From positions 124,001 to 188,000 of the forward strand of contig JAHLLM010000001.1 in assembly GCA_020444175.1 (NCBI GenBank): DNA of 64,000 nt. The letters run 5' to 3'. How positions within the stretch are numbered: the stretch's first letter is position 1; the number at the start of each line of letters is the position of its first letter. The position numbers and the translations under genes were made by a program. The DNA is from Desulfobulbaceae bacterium (GTDB lineage Bacteria; Desulfobacterota; Desulfobulbia; Desulfobulbales; SURF-16). Of the stretch, positions 1 through 11,745 are shown one piece after another. Below the pieces are notes generated by a model. It was given only the letters and a program-made list of their open reading frames with translations. It had not been told where the DNA came from and searched no databases.

Positions 1-3000
1 TGTCCATGTGCCGACCCTTGGGTTGCTCAGCATGTTTCTTGATGCCGGCCTGACTCGCTTTGTTTTTGAGGGCCGCGAAGCAGGAGGCCATGTGGGGCCT
101 TTGACAAGTTTTGTGCTCTGGGAAATGATGATTAATAAACTCCTGCTCTTTCTTGACAAGGGTTCAAAAGCAGAGAACTATCACATCCTCTTTGCCGGCG
201 GCATCAAAGACGGACTCTCCTCTGCCATTGTCGCCGCCATGGCAGCACCCCTTGCCAAGCGCGGCGTACGGATCGGCCTCCAACTTGGCAGTGCCTATCT
301 TTTTACCGAAGAGGCAGTTGCCACCGGAGCCATTGTCAAACGCTTCCAGGATGAAATCATCAAATGCAGGCAAACTATCCTGCTTGAAACCGCGCCAGGA
401 CACGCAGTGCGCTGTGCGAACAGCCCCTTTACCCGAACATTCCTGCAGGAAAGACAACGCTTGCAGACAAACGGCAAAACCGTTCAGGAAATCCGCTCAA
501 TGCTTGAAAAGCTGGAAAAGGGACGATTACGTGTTGCCAGCAAGGGAATCTCCGTCAATCCCGCTCATAAGGACGACCCGGATGTGCCACGACTGATTAC
601 AATCAATGAGGAGGAACAGTTCAGGCAGGGAGAGTATATGATCGGCGAACTTGCCGCCCTGCAGAGCAGCAGCCTGACCCTTGACGCCCTTCATCAGGAA
701 ATAATTGCAAGAGGCGCAGGCAGGCTCACACAAAAAAGCCGCCCACCCGTTGTCTCACAAGCAGAACCAGAGCAGCAACCATCGGATATTGCCATAATCG
801 GCATGAGCTGCTTCTTTCCCCAGGCTGAAAACGTTGCCCAGTATTGGTCGAACATTGTCAACAAGATCAACACGATACGTGAAATCCCCAAGGAGAGATG
901 GGACTGGCAACGATACTTTGACGCCGACCGCCAGGCCCCTGATAAAATCTATTCCAAATGGGGCACCTTTCTTGACGACGTCCCCTTTGATCCGCTGCAG
1001 TACGGCATGCCGCCCAAGGGAATTTCCTCGGTGGAGCCACTTCATCTCATCTCCCTGGAAACGGTCCGCTTTGCCCTGGAGGATGCCGGCTACAGCAATC
1101 GCCCCTTCTGCCGGGACAGCACCGCTGTTTTTTACGGCGTCAGCGGCTCGGGTGAGCTGGGGCAGCTTTACGGCTTCCGCACCATGCTGCCCATGTTTTT
1201 CGGAGAGGCGTCCTCTGATATCATCAACCATTTTTCCTCCACCCTGCCGGAGTGGACCGAGGATTCATTCCCCGGCATTTTAATGAATGTTGCTGCAGGC
1301 AGAATTGCCAACCGTTTTGACCTGGGCGGCGCAAACGCCCTGCTTGATGCCGCGTGCGCATCCTCCCTTGCCGCCCTCTACCTCGGGGTCAAGGAGCTGG
1401 AAACCAGAAGCTGCGACATGGCCCTGGTGGGCAGCACCGACTGTATGCAGAATCCCTTTACCTACATGTGTTTTTCAAAGACCCAGGCCCTCTCTCCCCG
1501 CGGTATCTGCAATTCCCTGGATCAGGGAGCCGATGGTATTGTTATCGGAGAAGGGTCGGTGATGTTCGTCTTAAAACGGCTTGACGATGCGGAACGCGAT
1601 GGAGACAAAATCTATTCGGTTATCAAGGGGATGGGGGCCTCAAGCGACGGCAGGGACAGGAGTCTCACCGCCCCCGGGGTTAAAGGCCAGATGCGAGCCC
1701 TGAAAAGGGCCTACGCCAAATCCGGTATTTCACCTGTGGAGGTGGAGCTGGCCGAGGCCCATGCTACCGGCACGGTGGCAGGCGACAAGGTGGAGATTGA
1801 ATCCCTCAGTACGGTCTATAAGCAGGCTGGCGCTTCACCAAAAAATTGTGCCATCGGTTCGGTCAAATCAATGATCGGCCATACCAAGTCCGCCGCCGGT
1901 CTGGCAAGTCTGATGAAGATTGTTCTTGCCCTTCACCATAAGGTTCTGCCGCCCACCCTTGGCGTTGAGAAACCGAATAAAGGACTGCTGCCCTCTGATT
2001 CCCCTTTTTATGCCAACACCCAGACCCGTCCGTGGCTTACAAAAAACAAAGAAAAAGGCCGCAAGGCGGTGGTCAGCGCCTTTGGCTTCGGCGGTACCAA
2101 CTACCATGCCGTTGTTCAGGAATACCAGGGCGACCACCTTGGCATGCGAGATGCCGCCCCATTCCAGAAGTGGCCAAGCGAGCTCTTTTTCTGGCATGGC
2201 GGATCTGCAGAAGAGATAGTTGAACAGGTGCAAGCCCTGCAGGACAAACTCAGCCCAGCTCTCCACGTGAACCTTGGCGACCTGGCTTACACCTGCGCCT
2301 TGGCAAGCAAGGCCGGAAAAAAAGAGACAGAAAAAAAATGCAGCCTGGCCCTGGTTGCAGCCTCCCTCGATGATCTCAGGGCCAAGCTTGCCACTGCAAG
2401 AGAAAAACTAAGCCAAGACGCCTCTGACATTGTTGATCCGCGCGGTATTTATTTCAGCGCCAAACCGCTTTATCGTGAAGGCAAGGTGGCCTTTGTCTTT
2501 CCGGGACAGGGATCGCAATATGTCAATATGCTTGCCGATTTGGCCGTGCAATTTCCCTTTATCCGCAAGCTCTTTGAACGAAGCGATATCATTCTTGAAG
2601 GCATCCTTGACGCTCCGCTGTCGGCCACTATTTTCCCGGCCGATGTCTTTACCGATGATGAAAAAAAGGCCCAGAAAGTTGCCCTGGCCCACACCAGGCA
2701 TGCCCAGCCTGCCCTTGGCACAGCGGATCTGGCCATTCTCCACCTACTGCGCTTACTCAACATTCAGCCGGACATGACGGCAGGACACAGTTACGGCGAG
2801 TATGTCGCCCTCTGTGCCGCAGGAGTCATGGCCGAGGATGATCTGATCCTGCTGTCAGAGGCGCGGGCCCGTTTTATCCTGGAAGGAGCAGGAGATAATC
2901 CCGGCACCATGGCTGCGGTGCAGGCGAATTTAAGTGAGGTGGAAAAAGGCGTTCAGGGGCTCGAAGGTGTGTGGATTGCCAACCTGAACTCTCCCCGGCA

Positions 3001-6000
3001 GTCGGTCATTACCGGCACATCAAAAGGCATCAAGGCAGCAGTTGAACGATTCTCTGAGCTGGGGATAAAGGCAAGGCCTATTCCTGTAAGCTGTGCCTTT
3101 CATTCTCCCCTGATGGAGCCAGCCTGTGCCAAGCTTGAAGAGTTCCTGGCGGGCATCTCCTTTAACAAGCCGTGCGTCCCTGTCTATTCCAACACCACGG
3201 CGAGTGTCCACTCCGAAGATGGCCTGGAAATCAAGAAGGTACTTGTCCGGCATCTGATAAATAAGGTGGAGTTTGTCAAACAGATTAATGAAATGTATGA
3301 GCAGGGTGCCAGGATTTTTATTGAGGTGGGACCGGGCAGGGTAATGAGCAGCCTTGTTCAGCAGATCATCGGCGACCGACCCCATCTTGCCGCGTCGGCA
3401 AACCTTGCAGGCCGTTCCGGCTTCAGCCAGCTTCATCATCTCATGGCGCAGCTCATCTGCCACGGGGTTCCGGTTCAACCAGAACAGCTTAATACCGGCA
3501 GGAAACTAAAAAAACTCGACCTGGACAATCTCTCAACATCACCCTACGCCCATCTTTCTCCCACCACCTGGCTGGTGAACGGGGCCGGTGTAAGGCCGCT
3601 GAAAGATCAGCAAAAAACCGGCGGACACGCGGATATCACTCCCTACTCTTTTTCTCACACATCCGCCCAGCAAGAAACAGCATCCAGTAACGATAAGATA
3701 TGCCGCATGACGGATAATGCGCTGTCAGGTAGCGGTCCAACCGGAGCAGTAGAGGGCAAAGCACAGGCCATGTTCGGCTTCCAGAAAATGATGCAGCAGT
3801 TTCTGGCCAGCCAGAACAATGTCATGATGAATTTTCTGCAGTCAGGCACCCCAATAGGTCCGACTGTGCCGCACCCGACCGGCAAAGTCTGCGGACAGAC
3901 AGCTCCATGCAAGAAAAAAACAAAGGATGCAGCCCATCTCCTGCCACGTTTCTTACTGAACTACCAGCCAATCAGCCTCCCTCAGCAGACGCGTCCCCTG
4001 GACAAGGGAAAAACCGTCCTCATTACCGATGACAACCAAGGGATTGCTGCAGCAGTGAGTACTCTTTTAAGGGACCAGGGTTACAAAACCGCCCTGCTTG
4101 GCCACGGCAAAGAGACAAAATCAGAAAAACAGTGCTTTTCCCTGCCGGAATGGACCGAGGAGAACATAGCCAAGGCGACTCAAGAAATAGAAAACAGCTT
4201 AGGGCCGGTGGGAAGCATTCTCCATCTTTTTCCCCTGCAGAAATGGCCGGCATTCCAGGACATGAACGCAGAGCAATGGCAAAGCCGTTTGCATAGTGAG
4301 CAGGCAAGTCTCTTTTTTCTGCTGCAATGCTGCCAGCAGAGTATCAGGCAAACAGGACAGGAAGGGGGAGCTGTGATCCTCTGCGCCTCCTCCATGGGCG
4401 GTACGGCAGGCCTTGACCCAGCCACCATTTCCCGGGACTACTTTCCCGGCCACGGCGCTCTGGGAGGTTTTGCTAAAACCCTTGCCCTGGAGTGGCCCGA
4501 GGTGCGCTGCCGCTCCGTTGACCTCTCTCCTGGGGATGGCATGGAGGCCGTTGCAGCGGCCCTTGTCACCGAATGTACGGCTGACGACGGCCTGGTGCAG
4601 GTAGGCTACCGGAATGGCAGCCGTCTGGCTCCAGCTCTTGTTGAGACCTCGCTTGCCTCGCGAAAGACGGAACCTTGCAGGCCTGAATCGTCATGGGTCA
4701 TCGTGGTTACCGGTGGAGCGCGGGGCATCACCGCCACTATTTCAGCTGACATTGCCAAACGCTATCAGCCCACCCTGATCCTGGCCGGACGTTCTCCGAT
4801 GCCTGCAGAAAAGGAAGGGGAGGAAACCTGCCATCTGTCCCAGACTACGGAAATAAAAAAGGCGCTTATCGAAAAACATAAAAAAAGCGGAAAAGCCTTT
4901 CAGATTGGCGACATTGAAAAAGAATGCGCCCAGATCGTAAAAGACAGGGAGATCCGGGCCCACCTTGCCCAAATGCGGCAATACGGTGCCACAGTTTCCT
5001 ACCAGCAGCTCGATGTCCGAAACGAAGACGATGTCGCCGCATTCCTAAAAAAAACCTATGATACATACGGCAGGCTCGACGGCGTTATCCATGGCGCCGG
5101 CATTATAGAGGACAAACTGTTCAATGAAAAAAAATGGCAGTCTTTTTCCAGGGTTGTCAGCACCAAAACGGATGGAGCCTATTTTCTCAGTAAATATCTT
5201 AAGCCCGATTCTCTGCAATTTTTCGCCTTTTTCACCTCGGTTGCCGGAAGCTTTGGCAATATCGGCCAGTGCGACTATGCCGCGGCCAACGAGATCGTCA
5301 ACAAGCTGGCCCTGTACCTGGACAAAAAATGGCCTGATGTCCATCTCTTTTCCCTGAACTGGGGACCCTGGGCCGGATCGGGCATGGCCACCGACGAGGT
5401 GCAGAAACAGTTCCAGGAAAGGCAGGTAGAACTCATTGGTCAGGCTGACGGCGCCCTGACATTCCATGAAGAAATGATCCTGGGCAGCAAGGGGGAAGTG
5501 GAACTTGTTGTCGGCGACGGCCCCTGGCGTTTTGTGGCCTGCGACGAATCATCGAGAAAAACAGGAATACCCCTGCCATTTTTCCAGGATATCTTACTGC
5601 CCCTTCGCTCAGACGGCTCGCTCGTTCTCAGGAAATCCCTTGATCTTGCAAATGATCTCTATCTGCGTGATCATTGCCTTGACGGCAAAGGAGTAGTCCC
5701 GGCAGCCATGGCCGTTGAGCTTATGGCTGAGGCCGCTCTTGCCGGTCGCCGGGGATGGCACTTGATTGCTGTTAAAAAAATCAGGGTGCTCAAGGGAATT
5801 GTCCTGGACAGTGAGCAAAAGATGCTGACCATCACCGTTTCATCGCCAAGAAAGGGACCTTCAGAGGGAGACATAAGGCTTGAGGTAAAAATAAGCGATG
5901 GCCAGAAATCCATCCCTCATTACAGCGGCACCGTGTGTCTCGGTAAAGCACCTGTAAAGGCTGCAAAACACGCACTCCCCCAAGCCAACTCCCTGGCCCC

Positions 6001-6472
6001 CTGGGGCATGACCGTGCAACAGTCCTATGACAAGTGGCTCTTTCACGGCCCTCTCTTCCAATGCATCGACCATTTTGAGGGATGTACGGAAAAGGAGATT
6101 GTCGCCCGCCTCACCACCTCATCTCCCCAAAAATGTCTGGCAGGACACCCTGCGGGACACTGGCTCACCGATCCAGTGGTTCTTGACGGCGGCCTGCAAA
6201 TGGCCCTTCTCTGGGCCAGGAAGCACTGCAACATCACGGTGCTTCCCTCAAGCTTTAAAGGAGTCCTGCTCTATCGCCCCCTCCATGAAGCGGATGAGCT
6301 CGTCTGCCATCTTCAGGTGGTGGAAAGGGTCAGTAAACAGAGCATCCTTTACAATATGTTTTTCACTGACCGGCAGGGGACGCTTTTTGCCATGATTGAT
6401 CGGGTGGAAGCAACGGGAAGCAGAGAATTGAACCGTCTGGTGGGCCACCAGACACCTGGAAAGAAAGTATAA
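1..6472 (+). CDS. PUFA-synthase-like megasynthase, ER-KS-AT-KR-DH (5' partial)
   Basis: Large iterative type I synthase for a fatty-acid or polyketide-type lipid. The reading frame is open to the window edge, so the start is missing; residue numbers count from a GTG at 8. Domains in order: a nitronate-monooxygenase/PfaD-like flavin enoylreductase (about 1-230, with FEGREAGGHVGP), ketosynthase (about 259-715, Cys450 in DAACASS, His585, His625), acyltransferase (about 828-1130, Ser928 in GHSYGE), an amphipathic Met/Gln-rich helix, ketoreductase (nucleotide loop VTGGARG near 1567, Ser1744-Tyr1757-Asn1761) and a hot-dog dehydratase (HxxxGxxxxP from His1889, DGGLQ further on). No acyl carrier domain is present, although the helix usually lies before ACPs in PfaA-type proteins. 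It ends 9 bp before the next synthase gene. The product is unknown; a secondary lipid or polyunsaturated acyl chain is inferred. Confidence 0.88.
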   Translation, partial: VHVPTLGLLSMFLDAGLTRFVFEGREAGGHVGPLTSFVLWEMMINKLLLFLDKGSKAENYHILFAGGIKDGLSSAIVAAMAAPLAKRGVRIGLQLGSAYLFTEEAVATGAIVKRFQDEIIKCRQTILLETAPGHAVRCANSPFTRTFLQERQRLQTNGKTVQEIRSMLEKLEKGRLRVASKGISVNPAHKDDPDVPRLITINEEEQFRQGEYMIGELAALQSSSLTLDALHQEIIARGAGRLTQKSRPPVVSQAEPEQQPSDIAIIGMSCFFPQAENVAQYWSNIVNKINTIREIPKERWDWQRYFDADRQAPDKIYSKWGTFLDDVPFDPLQYGMPPKGISSVEPLHLISLETVRFALEDAGYSNRPFCRDSTAVFYGVSGSGELGQLYGFRTMLPMFFGEASSDIINHFSSTLPEWTEDSFPGILMNVAAGRIANRFDLGGANALLDAACASSLAALYLGVKELETRSCDMALVGSTDCMQNPFTYMCFSKTQALSPRGICNSLDQGADGIVIGEGSVMFVLKRLDDAERDGDKIYSVIKGMGASSDGRDRSLTAPGVKGQMRALKRAYAKSGISPVEVELAEAHATGTVAGDKVEIESLSTVYKQAGASPKNCAIGSVKSMIGHTKSAAGLASLMKIVLALHHKVLPPTLGVEKPNKGLLPSDSPFYANTQTRPWLTKNKEKGRKAVVSAFGFGGTNYHAVVQEYQGDHLGMRDAAPFQKWPSELFFWHGGSAEEIVEQVQALQDKLSPALHVNLGDLAYTCALASKAGKKETEKKCSLALVAASLDDLRAKLATAREKLSQDASDIVDPRGIYFSAKPLYREGKVAFVFPGQGSQYVNMLADLAVQFPFIRKLFERSDIILEGILDAPLSATIFPADVFTDDEKKAQKVALAHTRHAQPALGTADLAILHLLRLLNIQPDMTAGHSYGEYVALCAAGVMAEDDLILLSEARARFILEGAGDNPGTMAAVQANLSEVEKGVQGLEGVWIANLNSPRQSVITGTSKGIKAAVERFSELGIKARPIPVSCAFHSPLMEPACAKLEEFLAGISFNKPCVPVYSNTTASVHSEDGLEIKKVLVRHLINKVEFVKQINEMYEQGARIFIEVGPGRVMSSLVQQIIGDRPHLAASANLAGRSGFSQLHHLMAQLICHGVPVQPEQLNTGRKLKKLDLDNLSTSPYAHLSPTTWLVNGAGVRPLKDQQKTGGHADITPYSFSHTSAQQETASSNDKICRMTDNALSGSGPTGAVEGKAQAMFGFQKMMQQFLASQNNVMMNFLQSGTPIGPTVPHPTGKVCGQTAPCKKKTKDAAHLLPRFLLNYQPISLPQQTRPLDKGKTVLITDDNQGIAAAVSTLLRDQGYKTALLGHGKETKSEKQCFSLPEWTEENIAKATQEIENSLGPVGSILHLFPLQKWPAFQDMNAEQWQSRLHSEQASLFFLLQCCQQSIRQTGQEGGAVILCASSMGGTAGLDPATISRDYFPGHGALGGFAKTLALEWPEVRCRSVDLSPGDGMEAVAAALVTECTADDGLVQVGYRNGSRLAPALVETSLASRKTEPCRPESSWVIVVTGGARGITATISADIAKRYQPTLILAGRSPMPAEKEGEETCHLSQTTEIKKALIEKHKKSGKAFQIGDIEKECAQIVKDREIRAHLAQMRQYGATVSYQQLDVRNEDDVAAFLKKTYDTYGRLDGVIHGAGIIEDKLFNEKKWQSFSRVVSTKTDGAYFLSKYLKPDSLQFFAFFTSVAGSFGNIGQCDYAAANEIVNKLALYLDKKWPDVHLFSLNWGPWAGSGMATDEVQKQFQERQVELIGQADGALTFHEEMILGSKGEVELVVGDGPWRFVACDESSRKTGIPLPFFQDILLPLRSDGSLVLRKSLDLANDLYLRDHCLDGKGVVPAAMAVELMAEAALAGRRGWHLIAVKKIRVLKGIVLDSEQKMLTITVSSPRKGPSEGDIRLEVKISDGQKSIPHYSGTVCLGKAPVKAAKHALPQANSLAPWGMTVQQSYDKWLFHGPLFQCIDHFEGCTEKEIVARLTTSSPQKCLAGHPAGHWLTDPVVLDGGLQMALLWARKHCNITVLPSSFKGVLLYRPLHEADELVCHLQVVERVSKQSILYNMFFTDRQGTLFAMIDRVEATGSRELNRLVGHQTPGKKV

Positions 6473-9400: not shown

Positions 9401-10084
9401 ATCGCCCTTTCAGCGTCAGCAGAAAAAGAAACGATGTCAGTATCAACTCCGCCTGCGTCGGATAAAAATACGTTGCTTGGACAATCAGAACAATACACAC
9501 CACTTCAACTTGATCAGAAAGAGGAAGAAGAAATGACCGACAAAGTCATGCTGGAATACCTCAAGACAATGGAAAACTTCCTGAAAATGCAGGAAAATAT
9601 AATGCACAGCTACCTCAATCAGGGCGGAGGAAATGCTGTCGACATGACACACCTCAACGAGCTACAGCCACCTGTCTCCCCCCCAGCAGCTCATTCCGGA
9701 CAACCCGCTGAACCGGTGAAAGCACAGATAGCGGAAACCAAAGAGGTCAATGAGTCGCCTGCACCAGCTCCCAAAAAACCTGAAGCCGAAAAGCCCAAAG
9801 ACATAAGCCGCCTTCTTCTTTCCCTGGTCAGCGAAAAAACAGGCTACCCGGAAAATATGATCGAGATGAATGTCAACATTGAAGCCGATCTGGGCATCGA
9901 TTCCATTAAACGGGTTGAAATCCTGGGAGCAGTGACCAAGCAGCTTGGCCTGCCGGATGATTACAGGTCGGAAAAACTGACCGGTCTCCATACCCTGGCG
10001 GAAATCGTCTCCTTTCTTGAAGAGCAGCAAAAAGCTTCGGCAGAGGGGGCTGCCACTCAAAAAAAAAGTCCAGTGACCGGCTAG
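6482..10084 (+). CDS. PUFA-synthase-like KS-AT-ACP protein
   Basis: Second synthase subunit, 1200 residues. Ketosynthase at about 14-460 has Cys219 in DAACATC, His354 (EAHGTG) and His394 (IGHLIP). Acyltransferase at about 592-900 has Ser691 in GHSSGE. A charged amphipathic helix begins near 1023 and resembles the helix in the upstream subunit. One acyl carrier domain (about 1105-1185) carries the phosphopantetheine Ser1141 in the DSIKR motif typical of PUFA and secondary-lipid synthases. It is the only carrier domain visible in the locus. The gene follows the first subunit by 9 bp, with AAGGAT before the ATG, so they are surely co-transcribed. Its last codons include an A9 run (10059-10067), and the following DH domain continues in the -1 frame, so this protein may also be made as a longer fusion. 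Confidence 0.88.
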   Translation: MKELDNREPTPTSKEDVAIIGMAAVFPKASDINAFWQNILAKVDAIVDPPEESLISQVYDPDSKANDRIYCKRGGYIDELPPFHPSDYGIMPVAIDGAEPEHFIALKIAQDALLDAGIPEKPLNRERTEVLIGRGTFVNRGYMTAMQHSVTIDQTIRLLGELQPHLSEDDLADIRSKLKKQLPPFSPETAPGLCHNVMAGLIANRLDLKGKNLVLDAACATCLLAVEMAVADLQQHKCDAVLVGAIQVSTHAPIHMIFTHLGALSRSPHLRPFDKNADGTMLGEGVGMMLLKRKQDAIRDGHRIYALIKGVGSSSDGRGKGLLAPSVEGEELAMRRAYESSSIDPATVELIEAHGTGIPLGDATEFQALRSVFPDGSEVAPRCGVGSVKSMIGHLIPAAGAAGLIKTACAMYHKVLPPTIFCEEINPALEIDKSPFYINMETRPWIHGASSYPRRAGVSAFGFGGINAHVIMEEYVEPQGEEKSLSSQKWASELFVFHGQTRSDVISQCQEFLDKLSVAAEKKWSMADLSFSLNRLFNDHPYRVAIIASSQEELAKKISHTVERLQDESRNRIKDRSGIYFFEKQLAREGKLAFLFPGEGSQYVNMLADLCLSFPEARACFDLLDRAYADHPRGYLPSHFIFPPTPQAKKEAEQTIFAMEGAVDAVSTANRALFKIVSSLGIVPDAIVGHSSGELAALEASGAVVLDSEEEVLHYIQLGNTIIEHLQESKTIPEGQLLAVGGVDMKTIEQVIGESRDFLRIAMENCPHQFVLCGTEQTVLEAGKKLQKSGAICQPLPFRRPYHTERFEPALAALEKFFSSATFNTPRVPLYSCMTAGLFPHEPKGIGNYARDQWAKQVRFRQSIEKMYDDGIRIFLELGPRANLTGFINDTLKGKDVLAVAANVHHRPAITQLQHALALLLTNGVNMDIMALYRNRRNRDLGLFQGDGKEKSPAKRGMILSRELPMLSLQGEKIALSASAEKETMSVSTPPASDKNTLLGQSEQYTPLQLDQKEEEEMTDKVMLEYLKTMENFLKMQENIMHSYLNQGGGNAVDMTHLNELQPPVSPPAAHSGQPAEPVKAQIAETKEVNESPAPAPKKPEAEKPKDISRLLLSLVSEKTGYPENMIEMNVNIEADLGIDSIKRVEILGAVTKQLGLPDDYRSEKLTGLHTLAEIVSFLEEQQKASAEGAATQKKSPVTG

Positions 10085-10188
10085 AGATCGAACTGACCCT
10101 TGATCTTCAAGGGCATCCCTATCTCCATGATCACAGCCTCGGAGGCCGGGTTTCCCGAGATGATGACGAACTCTATGGTCTGCCGGTC
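10058..10188 (+). other. A9 slippery run and start-less DH coding stretch
   Basis: In the frame of the upstream gene the codons read CAA AAA AAA AGT and reach TAG at 10082-10084. In the -1 frame, open from 10021, the sequence encodes HPYLHDHSLGG and GLPVMP, which look like the start of a dehydratase hot-dog domain including its catalytic His (10132-10134). That frame has no ATG, GTG or TTG before 10189. Either -1 ribosomal slippage on A AAA AAA, RNA polymerase slippage adding one A, a CTG start at 10093, or a homopolymer error in the sequence would explain this. Confidence 0.6.
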
Positions 10189-11745
10189 ATGCCCTTTAAT
10201 ATGGGCCTTGAACTTATGGCCGATGCAGCGGCGCAGCACTTCACCAACAAGGCGCTGACAGCAATTGAAAAAGCCAGGGCCCACGGCTGGCTTTTTGTTG
10301 AACAGGAAAAACAACAGATCCGCATTGTCGTATCACCGCAAAATTCTCGAAAAGCCCGCGTATCTCTCTACAAGACCCTTTCACCTTCTGAAGAAAAAGA
10401 GCAGCTTGTCCTGGAGGCGACTCTGCGCTTTGCCGACAGCTATCCTTCTCCTCCCCCTGCTCCACCCGTGCATGACCACGGAGCGGGAAAGGGTCTCTTG
10501 ACCAGGGAAGAAATTTACCCCAAACACATGTTCCATGGCCCTTCTTTTCAAAGTATCGTATCACTGCAGCAATGCGGACAAGACAGCGCCCTGGCTCTGT
10601 TGCAAAAACCTGATTCCGATCTTTTTCAGCCCTGGAAGGAGGAAAGACTTTTTTTCACCGAGCCGCTTCTTCTTGACGGTGCCGGGCAGCTTGTCGGCCT
10701 TTGGGCCGCCAACCAGCTTAAAGAGCATTTTGTTATTTTCCCAGCTGCCGTGGAACAGATCTCCTTTTTTAAGGATTCGCCTCGAAATTTTTCATCCCTG
10801 ACCTGTGAGGTTAACCCCCGGCTGCAGGGCGACTCAACCATCCTCTCAGACATCAATCTGGTCTCCGCAAATGAAACCGTCTTTGCCCAAATCACAGGAC
10901 TCCAGCACAGACGAATCAATATGCCGGAAATTATTCATCGCTTCCGGGGCAGCCGGGAGGTATTTTTAAGTTCCTCCTGGGATTTGCCGCGGCAACACAT
11001 ACCTGCAACCGACTCAGTGTCCTGCTGCCGTCTGCAGAGAGACCTTGTTGATCTTGCCGGCAGCGACCGCAACGTACTGCTGGCGGTCATTGCCCATATT
11101 ATTCTCGGACGCAATGAACGTCGCCACTGGTACGGGTTGAAAGGGTCTCCCAAAAGACGCGAAGAATGGCTGCTGGGGCGGTTGGCAGGCAAAGAGGCCA
11201 TACGGCGTCTTTTGCTTGAACTCGGCAAAACAGATATCCGGCCTGCTGATATCGAAATCATGCCGGATGCATACGGCAAACCGCTGGCCCGGGGAAATTG
11301 GGCGGCAGATCAGGATAAGACTCTTTCACTTTCGCTCAGCCACAGCGGCAATACGTTTGTGGCCCTTGCCGGCGTCCTTGCCCCAAAAGGTTCGCTTGGT
11401 ATTGATATTGAGGAAATGCGGGAGCTGGATGAAGATTTTATAAACTTTGCCTTTTCTGCTGAAGAAAGGGAAATCATACTAAATGATCCCCAAAAGGCAT
11501 TGCGTTGCTGGTGCGCCAAAGAATCCGCGGCCAAGGCTCTGGGATTTGGCATGCCCGGTGGCCCCCGTGATATGATCGTTGAAAGCTGCGATGAACTGAC
11601 GGGCGAAGTAAAACTGAAAGTTTCGGGTCTTCTTGAAAAAGAGCATGGTGGAGATCTTCCCTGCAAAGAGCTTCTGGCCCTCACCAGCATGGATGATAGT
11701 CTTACAGTTGCCCTTACCCTGAATGTCGACACGACGGTGTCTTAA
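10189..11745 (+). CDS. Dehydratase-4'-phosphopantetheinyl transferase fusion
   Basis: Third synthase gene. The N-terminal part (to about residue 260 from the ATG at 10189) is a hot-dog dehydratase with a DGAGQ motif for the catalytic Asp. The C-terminal third is an Sfp/HetI-type phosphopantetheinyl transferase, with the metal-binding GIDIE at about 404-408 and the WCAKESAAKALG motif (Lys444, Glu445). It would charge the DSIKR carrier domain encoded just upstream, making the locus self-sufficient. The ATG at 10189 is the first standard start, but the dehydratase catalytic His lies upstream at 10132 in the same frame, so the true protein almost certainly begins earlier, probably as a frameshift extension of the previous gene. 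Without that extension the DH would be inactive. I am sure of the domains and unsure of the start. Confidence 0.85.
   Translation: MPFNMGLELMADAAAQHFTNKALTAIEKARAHGWLFVEQEKQQIRIVVSPQNSRKARVSLYKTLSPSEEKEQLVLEATLRFADSYPSPPPAPPVHDHGAGKGLLTREEIYPKHMFHGPSFQSIVSLQQCGQDSALALLQKPDSDLFQPWKEERLFFTEPLLLDGAGQLVGLWAANQLKEHFVIFPAAVEQISFFKDSPRNFSSLTCEVNPRLQGDSTILSDINLVSANETVFAQITGLQHRRINMPEIIHRFRGSREVFLSSSWDLPRQHIPATDSVSCCRLQRDLVDLAGSDRNVLLAVIAHIILGRNERRHWYGLKGSPKRREEWLLGRLAGKEAIRRLLLELGKTDIRPADIEIMPDAYGKPLARGNWAADQDKTLSLSLSHSGNTFVALAGVLAPKGSLGIDIEEMRELDEDFINFAFSAEEREIILNDPQKALRCWCAKESAAKALGFGMPGGPRDMIVESCDELTGEVKLKVSGLLEKEHGGDLPCKELLALTSMDDSLTVALTLNVDTTVS

Follow-up and report, generated by a model that had tools for sequence, protein, structure and literature searches.

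A nine-adenine run at the ACP-dehydratase junction of a PfaA-like synthase gene and its possible slippage

The window analyzed here, a stretch of 64,000 nucleotides, contains two adjacent synthase genes, and in the second of these the reading frame changes at a run of nine adenines (A9). KS, AT, and ACP are encoded ahead of the run, and a dehydratase (DH) and PPTase follow in the -1 frame. The locus raises the question of how the DH-PPTase part is produced, whether from a start of its own or as the end of the upstream protein, and, in the latter case, how the base missing at A9 is to be explained. Coordinates are collected in Table 1.

Table 1. Features of the synthase locus, in window coordinates, with the basis of each assignment.
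Feature	Position	Strand	Basis
First synthase gene, ER/NMO - KS - AT - KR - DH	8..6472	+	Pfam, NCBIfam
Second synthase gene, upstream half, KS-AT-ACP, 1200 aa	6482..10084	+	Pfam, motifs
SD-like motif AGAGGGGG, 10 nt upstream of slippery heptamer	10042..10049	+	anti-SD duplex, published motifs
A9 run; slippery heptamer A_AAA_AAA in phase at 10060-10066	10059..10067	+	sequence
Downstream half, -1 frame: PKS dehydratase (double hot dog), then 4'-phosphopantetheinyl transferase, 559 aa	10066..11745	+	Pfam, AlphaFold, Foldseek
TAG stop, unshifted frame	10082..10084	+	sequence
Catalytic His codon CAC, DH motif HxxxGxxxxP, invariant in 19 sequences	10132..10134	+	alignment
First in-frame ATG, Met of conserved LPVMP motif	10189..10191	+	alignments, Pfam

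The synthase genes and the reading frames at A9

The open frame of the first gene begins 5' of the window (GTG approximately 1.3 kb before window base 1), and the ATG of the second gene is located 9 nt past the first-gene stop. The NCBIfam model TIGR02813 (omega_3_PfaA) was the best match for both synthase genes; the first gene scored over the cut-off, and the second, with 709 bits against 1010, scored below the PfaA cut-off. As in PfaA-like secondary lipid synthases, the KS-AT-ACP core is nearest PfaA and is accompanied by DH and ACPS (PPTase) matches in Pfam. The KS-AT-ACP half carries intact catalytic motifs (DAACAT, GHSSGE, and GIDSI, the last of these marking its one ACP), the DH His/Asp and PPTase motifs are also intact, and the -1 frame is free of stop codons from 10021 to 11742; with no further defect, the gene has therefore not decayed.

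Read from ATG 6482, the upstream frame crosses the junction, which lies in the flexible ACP-DH linker, as CAA AAA AAA AGT CCA GTG ACC GGC TAG. In the DH frame, the last stop before the domain is the TGA at 10018, and reading of the frame from 10021 to 10188 confirmed the statement of a preliminary description that ATG, GTG, and TTG are absent ahead of 10189. Its coordinates for A9, the TGA, the His codon (10132), ATG 10189, and the stop 15 bases past the run were likewise found to be correct on recheck. A start at the upstream stop, as in coupled gene pairs, is absent as well, and the only start-like codons of the DH frame ahead of ATG 10189 are ATC 10087, CTG 10093, and CTG 10180.

The coding frame was followed with a hexamer model, which was used in place of a plain codon-usage frame scan that lacked power. 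The hexamer coding score switches from the upstream frame to the -1 frame exactly at A9 (+21 before the run and +12 after it). As a control, both flanks of every A/T run of at least 7 were scored across 1.14 Mb of this genome. Frame was kept at 13 of the 14 coding A/T runs of at least 9, the sole break being the A9 studied here, and at 112 of the 117 coding runs of 8. Those exceptions among the latter that were inspected, like the apparent frame changes at other A7-A8 runs, proved to be mostly gene junctions. The frame switch at A9 is more than chance, since the score jumps at the run while nearly all comparable runs stay in frame.

Alignments and a structural model both bear on the first in-frame ATG of the DH. 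A Pfam match to PKS_DH_N begins at 10072 and disappears entirely if the protein is started at 10189, which upheld the earlier claim that the DH begins upstream of this ATG. Residues His23, Asp204, and Gln208 of the DH are invariant in the 19 aligned sequences. In the AlphaFold model of the downstream half (pLDDT 84), for which PKS DH domains were the best Foldseek matches (8qk4, 5hst, and 3kg6), a strand at residues 6-13 and a helix at residues 18-22 precede Met42; according to this model, a protein started at 10189 would lack the first beta strand, the catalytic His23, and the helix that runs up to it. Because the LPVMP Met is conserved in relatives and the PKS_DH_N match, the first strand, and the His would be lost, ATG 10189 is read from the alignments and the model as an internal Met and an implausible start.

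Relatives of the second synthase gene

Homologues were searched in 38 near genomes, in class-wide and phylum-wide sets of 258 and 395 genomes, and in the contig collection of GTDB. In the GTDB contig scan, the window DH-PPTase as a single-protein query gave no match and an alignment-based query gave matches; a plasmid collection yielded distant relatives only. Among the relatives found, the DH-PPTase part as a rule forms the C-terminal end of a single long protein. One uninterrupted frame covers ACP and DH in ten genomes (G254, G056, G057, G540, G282, G258, L131, L135, L142, and L164), and for G254, G540, G282, and G056 Pfam gave the identical domain order with a full KS in the same ORF. Many further relatives are KS-AT-DH-PPTase fusions that lack an ACP at the corresponding place. 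In an Acidobacteria MAG (L155, approximately 5234), the DH frame is broken inside the domain, probably through an assembly error.

In the KS-AT tree the window groups with G254 (59% identity; support 86/85), and in the DH-PPTase tree it groups with G254, L131, and G029 (support 100/100). The closest relatives carry the fused gene: G254 by KS-AT, and G254 and L131 by DH. The sole split exception among the ACP-DH relatives found is G029, a genome of the same order, in which KS-AT-ACP and DH are separate genes, coupled in the usual manner by a GTGA overlap with a GGGGAG SD upstream, likewise in the -1 frame; it is not the sister of the window in either tree. The G029 junction is located at 8840-8870 of L033 (G029:C13), and its downstream protein has no recognizable PPTase and ends in another ACP-like segment. 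With fused relatives and a G029 that is sister to the window in neither tree, fusion is likely ancestral and the frame break of the window derived, as judged from these sequences.

Because ACP and DH share a single open frame in ten other genomes, the second gene is best read as a single gene with the order KS-AT-ACP-DH-PPTase, from which one base is lacking at A9, and not as two genes with a hidden start; together with the first gene it makes up a PfaA-like secondary lipid synthase. The preliminary description had held that a -1 slip or one extra A fuses the two proteins, and the relatives carry exactly such a join as a single ORF. Its proposal of a hidden DH start was correct in that DH coding sequence precedes 10189, but was not sustained as to two genes, the relatives showing one fused gene. 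The comparison of the junction in related genomes that it had called for yielded a normally started DH gene in one relative (G029, GTGA with SD) and a single fused gene in the others. The A-run at the junction is shared by none of the homologues found, so that neither the frame break nor the slippery site is conserved among them; the synthase is absent from G001, the one congener covered by the search, and the A9 site is known from one genome only.

Possible slippage signals and homopolymers in the genome

At A9, the pattern X_XXZ_ZZN is present in phase between two -1-related ORFs. The run length is also within the range of poly-A slippage (at least 8-9 needed), and long A/T runs are avoided in the genes of the organism. 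The SD-like motif AGAGGGGG was noticed before its statistics were computed. Its predicted anti-SD duplex of -11.0 kcal/mol is equalled at 0.6% of coding positions, and in strength it ranks 2 among 261 in-phase slippery A-runs in genes. When compared with the list of SD stimulator motifs in PMC4066793, it contains three published motifs (GAGG/AGGGG/GGGGG, 11-14 nt before the second base); three overlapping SD motifs occur at 1.25% of positions, and any SD motif at 16%. A stimulatory hairpin 3' of the run was weighed and rejected as ordinary in stability: over 60 nt, structures as stable as that of the downstream RNA are formed at 21% of coding positions, and a z of -2.5 was given by one chosen 63-nt segment starting 6 nt past the heptamer.

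A genome-wide search for SD motifs followed by A-runs returned many ordinary gene starts. Two of its scored frame changes, L179 and L182, were rejected as gene starts with an ATG between SD and run. In L107 (G000:C14), a minus-strand gene with unbroken frame, GGGAGGGAG is followed by A8 in slip phase. An SD this strong beside an A8 in an unshifted gene indicates that pairing of SD and A-run arises by chance; L107 itself may be a place of unwanted or truncating -1 frameshifting. The dnaX of the organism is a single 611-aa open frame and offered no comparison.

A/T runs were counted in 831 kb of genes of the same genome and compared with a codon-shuffled expectation. Runs of A>=10 are six-fold depleted (3 seen, 19 expected), and runs of T>=10 number 0 against 6 expected; runs of exactly nine are mildly below expectation (A 24 against 32, T 9 against 15). 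A8 is above expectation (142 against 90), giving a sharp length threshold against A>=10. The depletion of long runs fits selection against slippery or hypermutable runs from approximately nine to ten, and an unbroken A10 would therefore be rare in the genes of this genome.

A systematic homopolymer error in the assembly is unlikely because 13 of the 14 coding A/T runs of at least 9 are in frame, which leaves room for a single error. Calls of a one-strand frameshift HMM were mostly false (shadow strand and gene junctions). Two apparent breaks were observed elsewhere in the 1.14 Mb, neither of them with a long homopolymer. In L089 (G000:C7, approximately 2640-2690), a multi-BON-domain protein shows an apparent -1 break between two BON domains near GGGGGAAAAG, with BON matches on both sides; in L128 (G000:C29, approximately 19110, minus strand), a SWIM zinc-finger protein changes frame without a nearby ATG, and the SWIM match is on the upstream side only. 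From these two breaks, random indels or errors are not rare in the DNA of this genome and occur at about the frequency that they indicate.

Readings of the junction and comparison with known systems

The likeliest reading, given about an even chance, is that A9 is real and that slippage on it, ribosomal or by polymerase, yields some fusion, so that part of the product would be rejoined; on a run like this one, slippage is to be expected provided that the run is real. By the ribosomal route, two Lys-tRNAs would slip back one base on A_AAA_AAA, aided by the SD-like motif upstream; by the polymerase route, RNA polymerase would insert an additional A while copying A9. Without a shift the product would be the KS-AT-ACP protein with a 5-residue tail, SPVTG, past the run, and with a shift the full protein of 1754 aa. 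We infer the correctness of A9, the occurrence of slippage, and its route. The narrower proposal of the preliminary description, that the slip is programmed and sets a regulated ratio of ACP protein to fusion, is at best improbable, also in the form of a -1 slip stimulated by the SD-like motif that would set the ratio of KS-AT-ACP to KS-AT-ACP-DH-PPTase: no relative has the A-run, the 3' RNA is ordinary, and a break known from a single genome is by default ascribed to indel or error (PMC3711429). In its workings the site resembles poly-A frameshift genes, but it was not assigned to the programmed frameshift class because conservation, the defining feature of that class, is not seen in the data.

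The reading that would dispense with slippage most simply is an assembly or sequencing error, the true run being A10 (or a nearby base having been lost from the sequence) and the gene having one normal ORF like its relatives. It is unlikely, though to be taken seriously: the relatives are fused, the A-run is the most error-prone spot in the gene, and single-gene frame breaks validated by homology (BLASTp) are regarded as mostly errors or indels (PMC3711429), but the frame is kept at nearly all comparable runs of the genome, and the scarcity of A>=10 in its genes leaves few sites open to a change from A10 to A9. A real indel without a programmed role is likewise a serious rival, though somewhat less probable than an error; it could be a mutation of recent date or an A9/A10 tract that is phase-variable, replication slippage turning the full-length synthase off and on. 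Homopolymers as long as A9 are prone to mutation, two or more further frame breaks are present in the 1.14 Mb (the BON and SWIM proteins), and the ancestral state was likely fused; against this, the 1754 codons contain no other inactivating change, the SD-like motif, of unusual strength and spaced 10 nt from the heptamer, would be without reason, and A9 cassettes in the literature still yield substantial fusion, which would leave the gene partly active.

The readings in which the DH-PPTase is a protein of its own are far less probable. Translation as a separate gene from a non-standard start at ATC 10087 or CTG 10093, coupled to TAG 10082, has a parallel in the split GTGA overlap of G029 with its SD and -1 frame, and a start at CTG 10093 would leave the His and some of the first strand in place. 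It is nevertheless very improbable, the DH frame having no ATG, GTG, or TTG, the SD-like motif being too distant at 37-43 nt upstream of these codons, and G029 and the window not being sisters in the trees, so that the split was not evidently inherited. That a shortened DH begins at 10189, the first in-frame ATG, is hardly credible: such a protein would start at the internal Met of LPVMP, dropping the catalytic His, first beta strand, and whole PKS_DH_N match, and the codons ahead of 10189 remain conserved coding sequence.

Gene callers would list two proteins at this locus, a synthase without DH and a DH without its catalytic His; reading across A9 restores the full enzyme and alters the predicted chemistry. 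If slippage on A9 is real, the megasynthase subunit would exist in two forms, one without the dehydratase and the carrier-protein-activating PPTase, and the reduction level of the product or self-activation could change. No report of recoding in a polyketide or PUFA synthase was found in the literature, which is weak evidence given the limited coverage of papers; a programmed slip, if true, would be the first recoding event known to us in a PKS/PUFA-type megasynthase.

Among known systems, E. coli dnaX shares with the window an A-rich slippery heptamer and an upstream SD-like motif. Its spacing from SD-like motif to heptamer is 10 nt. It differs in using A_AAA_AAG with a downstream hairpin, whereas no unusual hairpin is present in the window, and in the window it is the longer protein that would be the shifted product. 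In the magnesium chelatase genes of a GeneTack cluster (PMC3711429), an A-run with in-phase A_AAA_AAA and a -1 shift likewise connects two ORFs that correspond to a fused gene elsewhere, and a native cassette with nine A's from one of these genes frameshifted at 40% in E. coli; however, the break is conserved there in 23 genes of six genera and is known once here, and the phase of the A-run is slightly other, being AA_AAA_AAA_A in the window. A9 is a recognized length for transcriptional slippage, and RNA polymerase slips on nine A's in Thermus thermophilus dnaX to give two products (PMC1088944), but there the unslipped message encodes the long protein and in the window the short one. With the PfaA-like secondary lipid synthases (Shulse and Allen 2011, PMC3098273) the locus shares a PfaA-like KS-AT-ACP, an ER/NMO partner gene, and a PPTase in the cluster; it differs from them in that the second gene is below the PfaA cut-off and that its KS-AT-ACP-DH-PPTase order was matched here to no published type.
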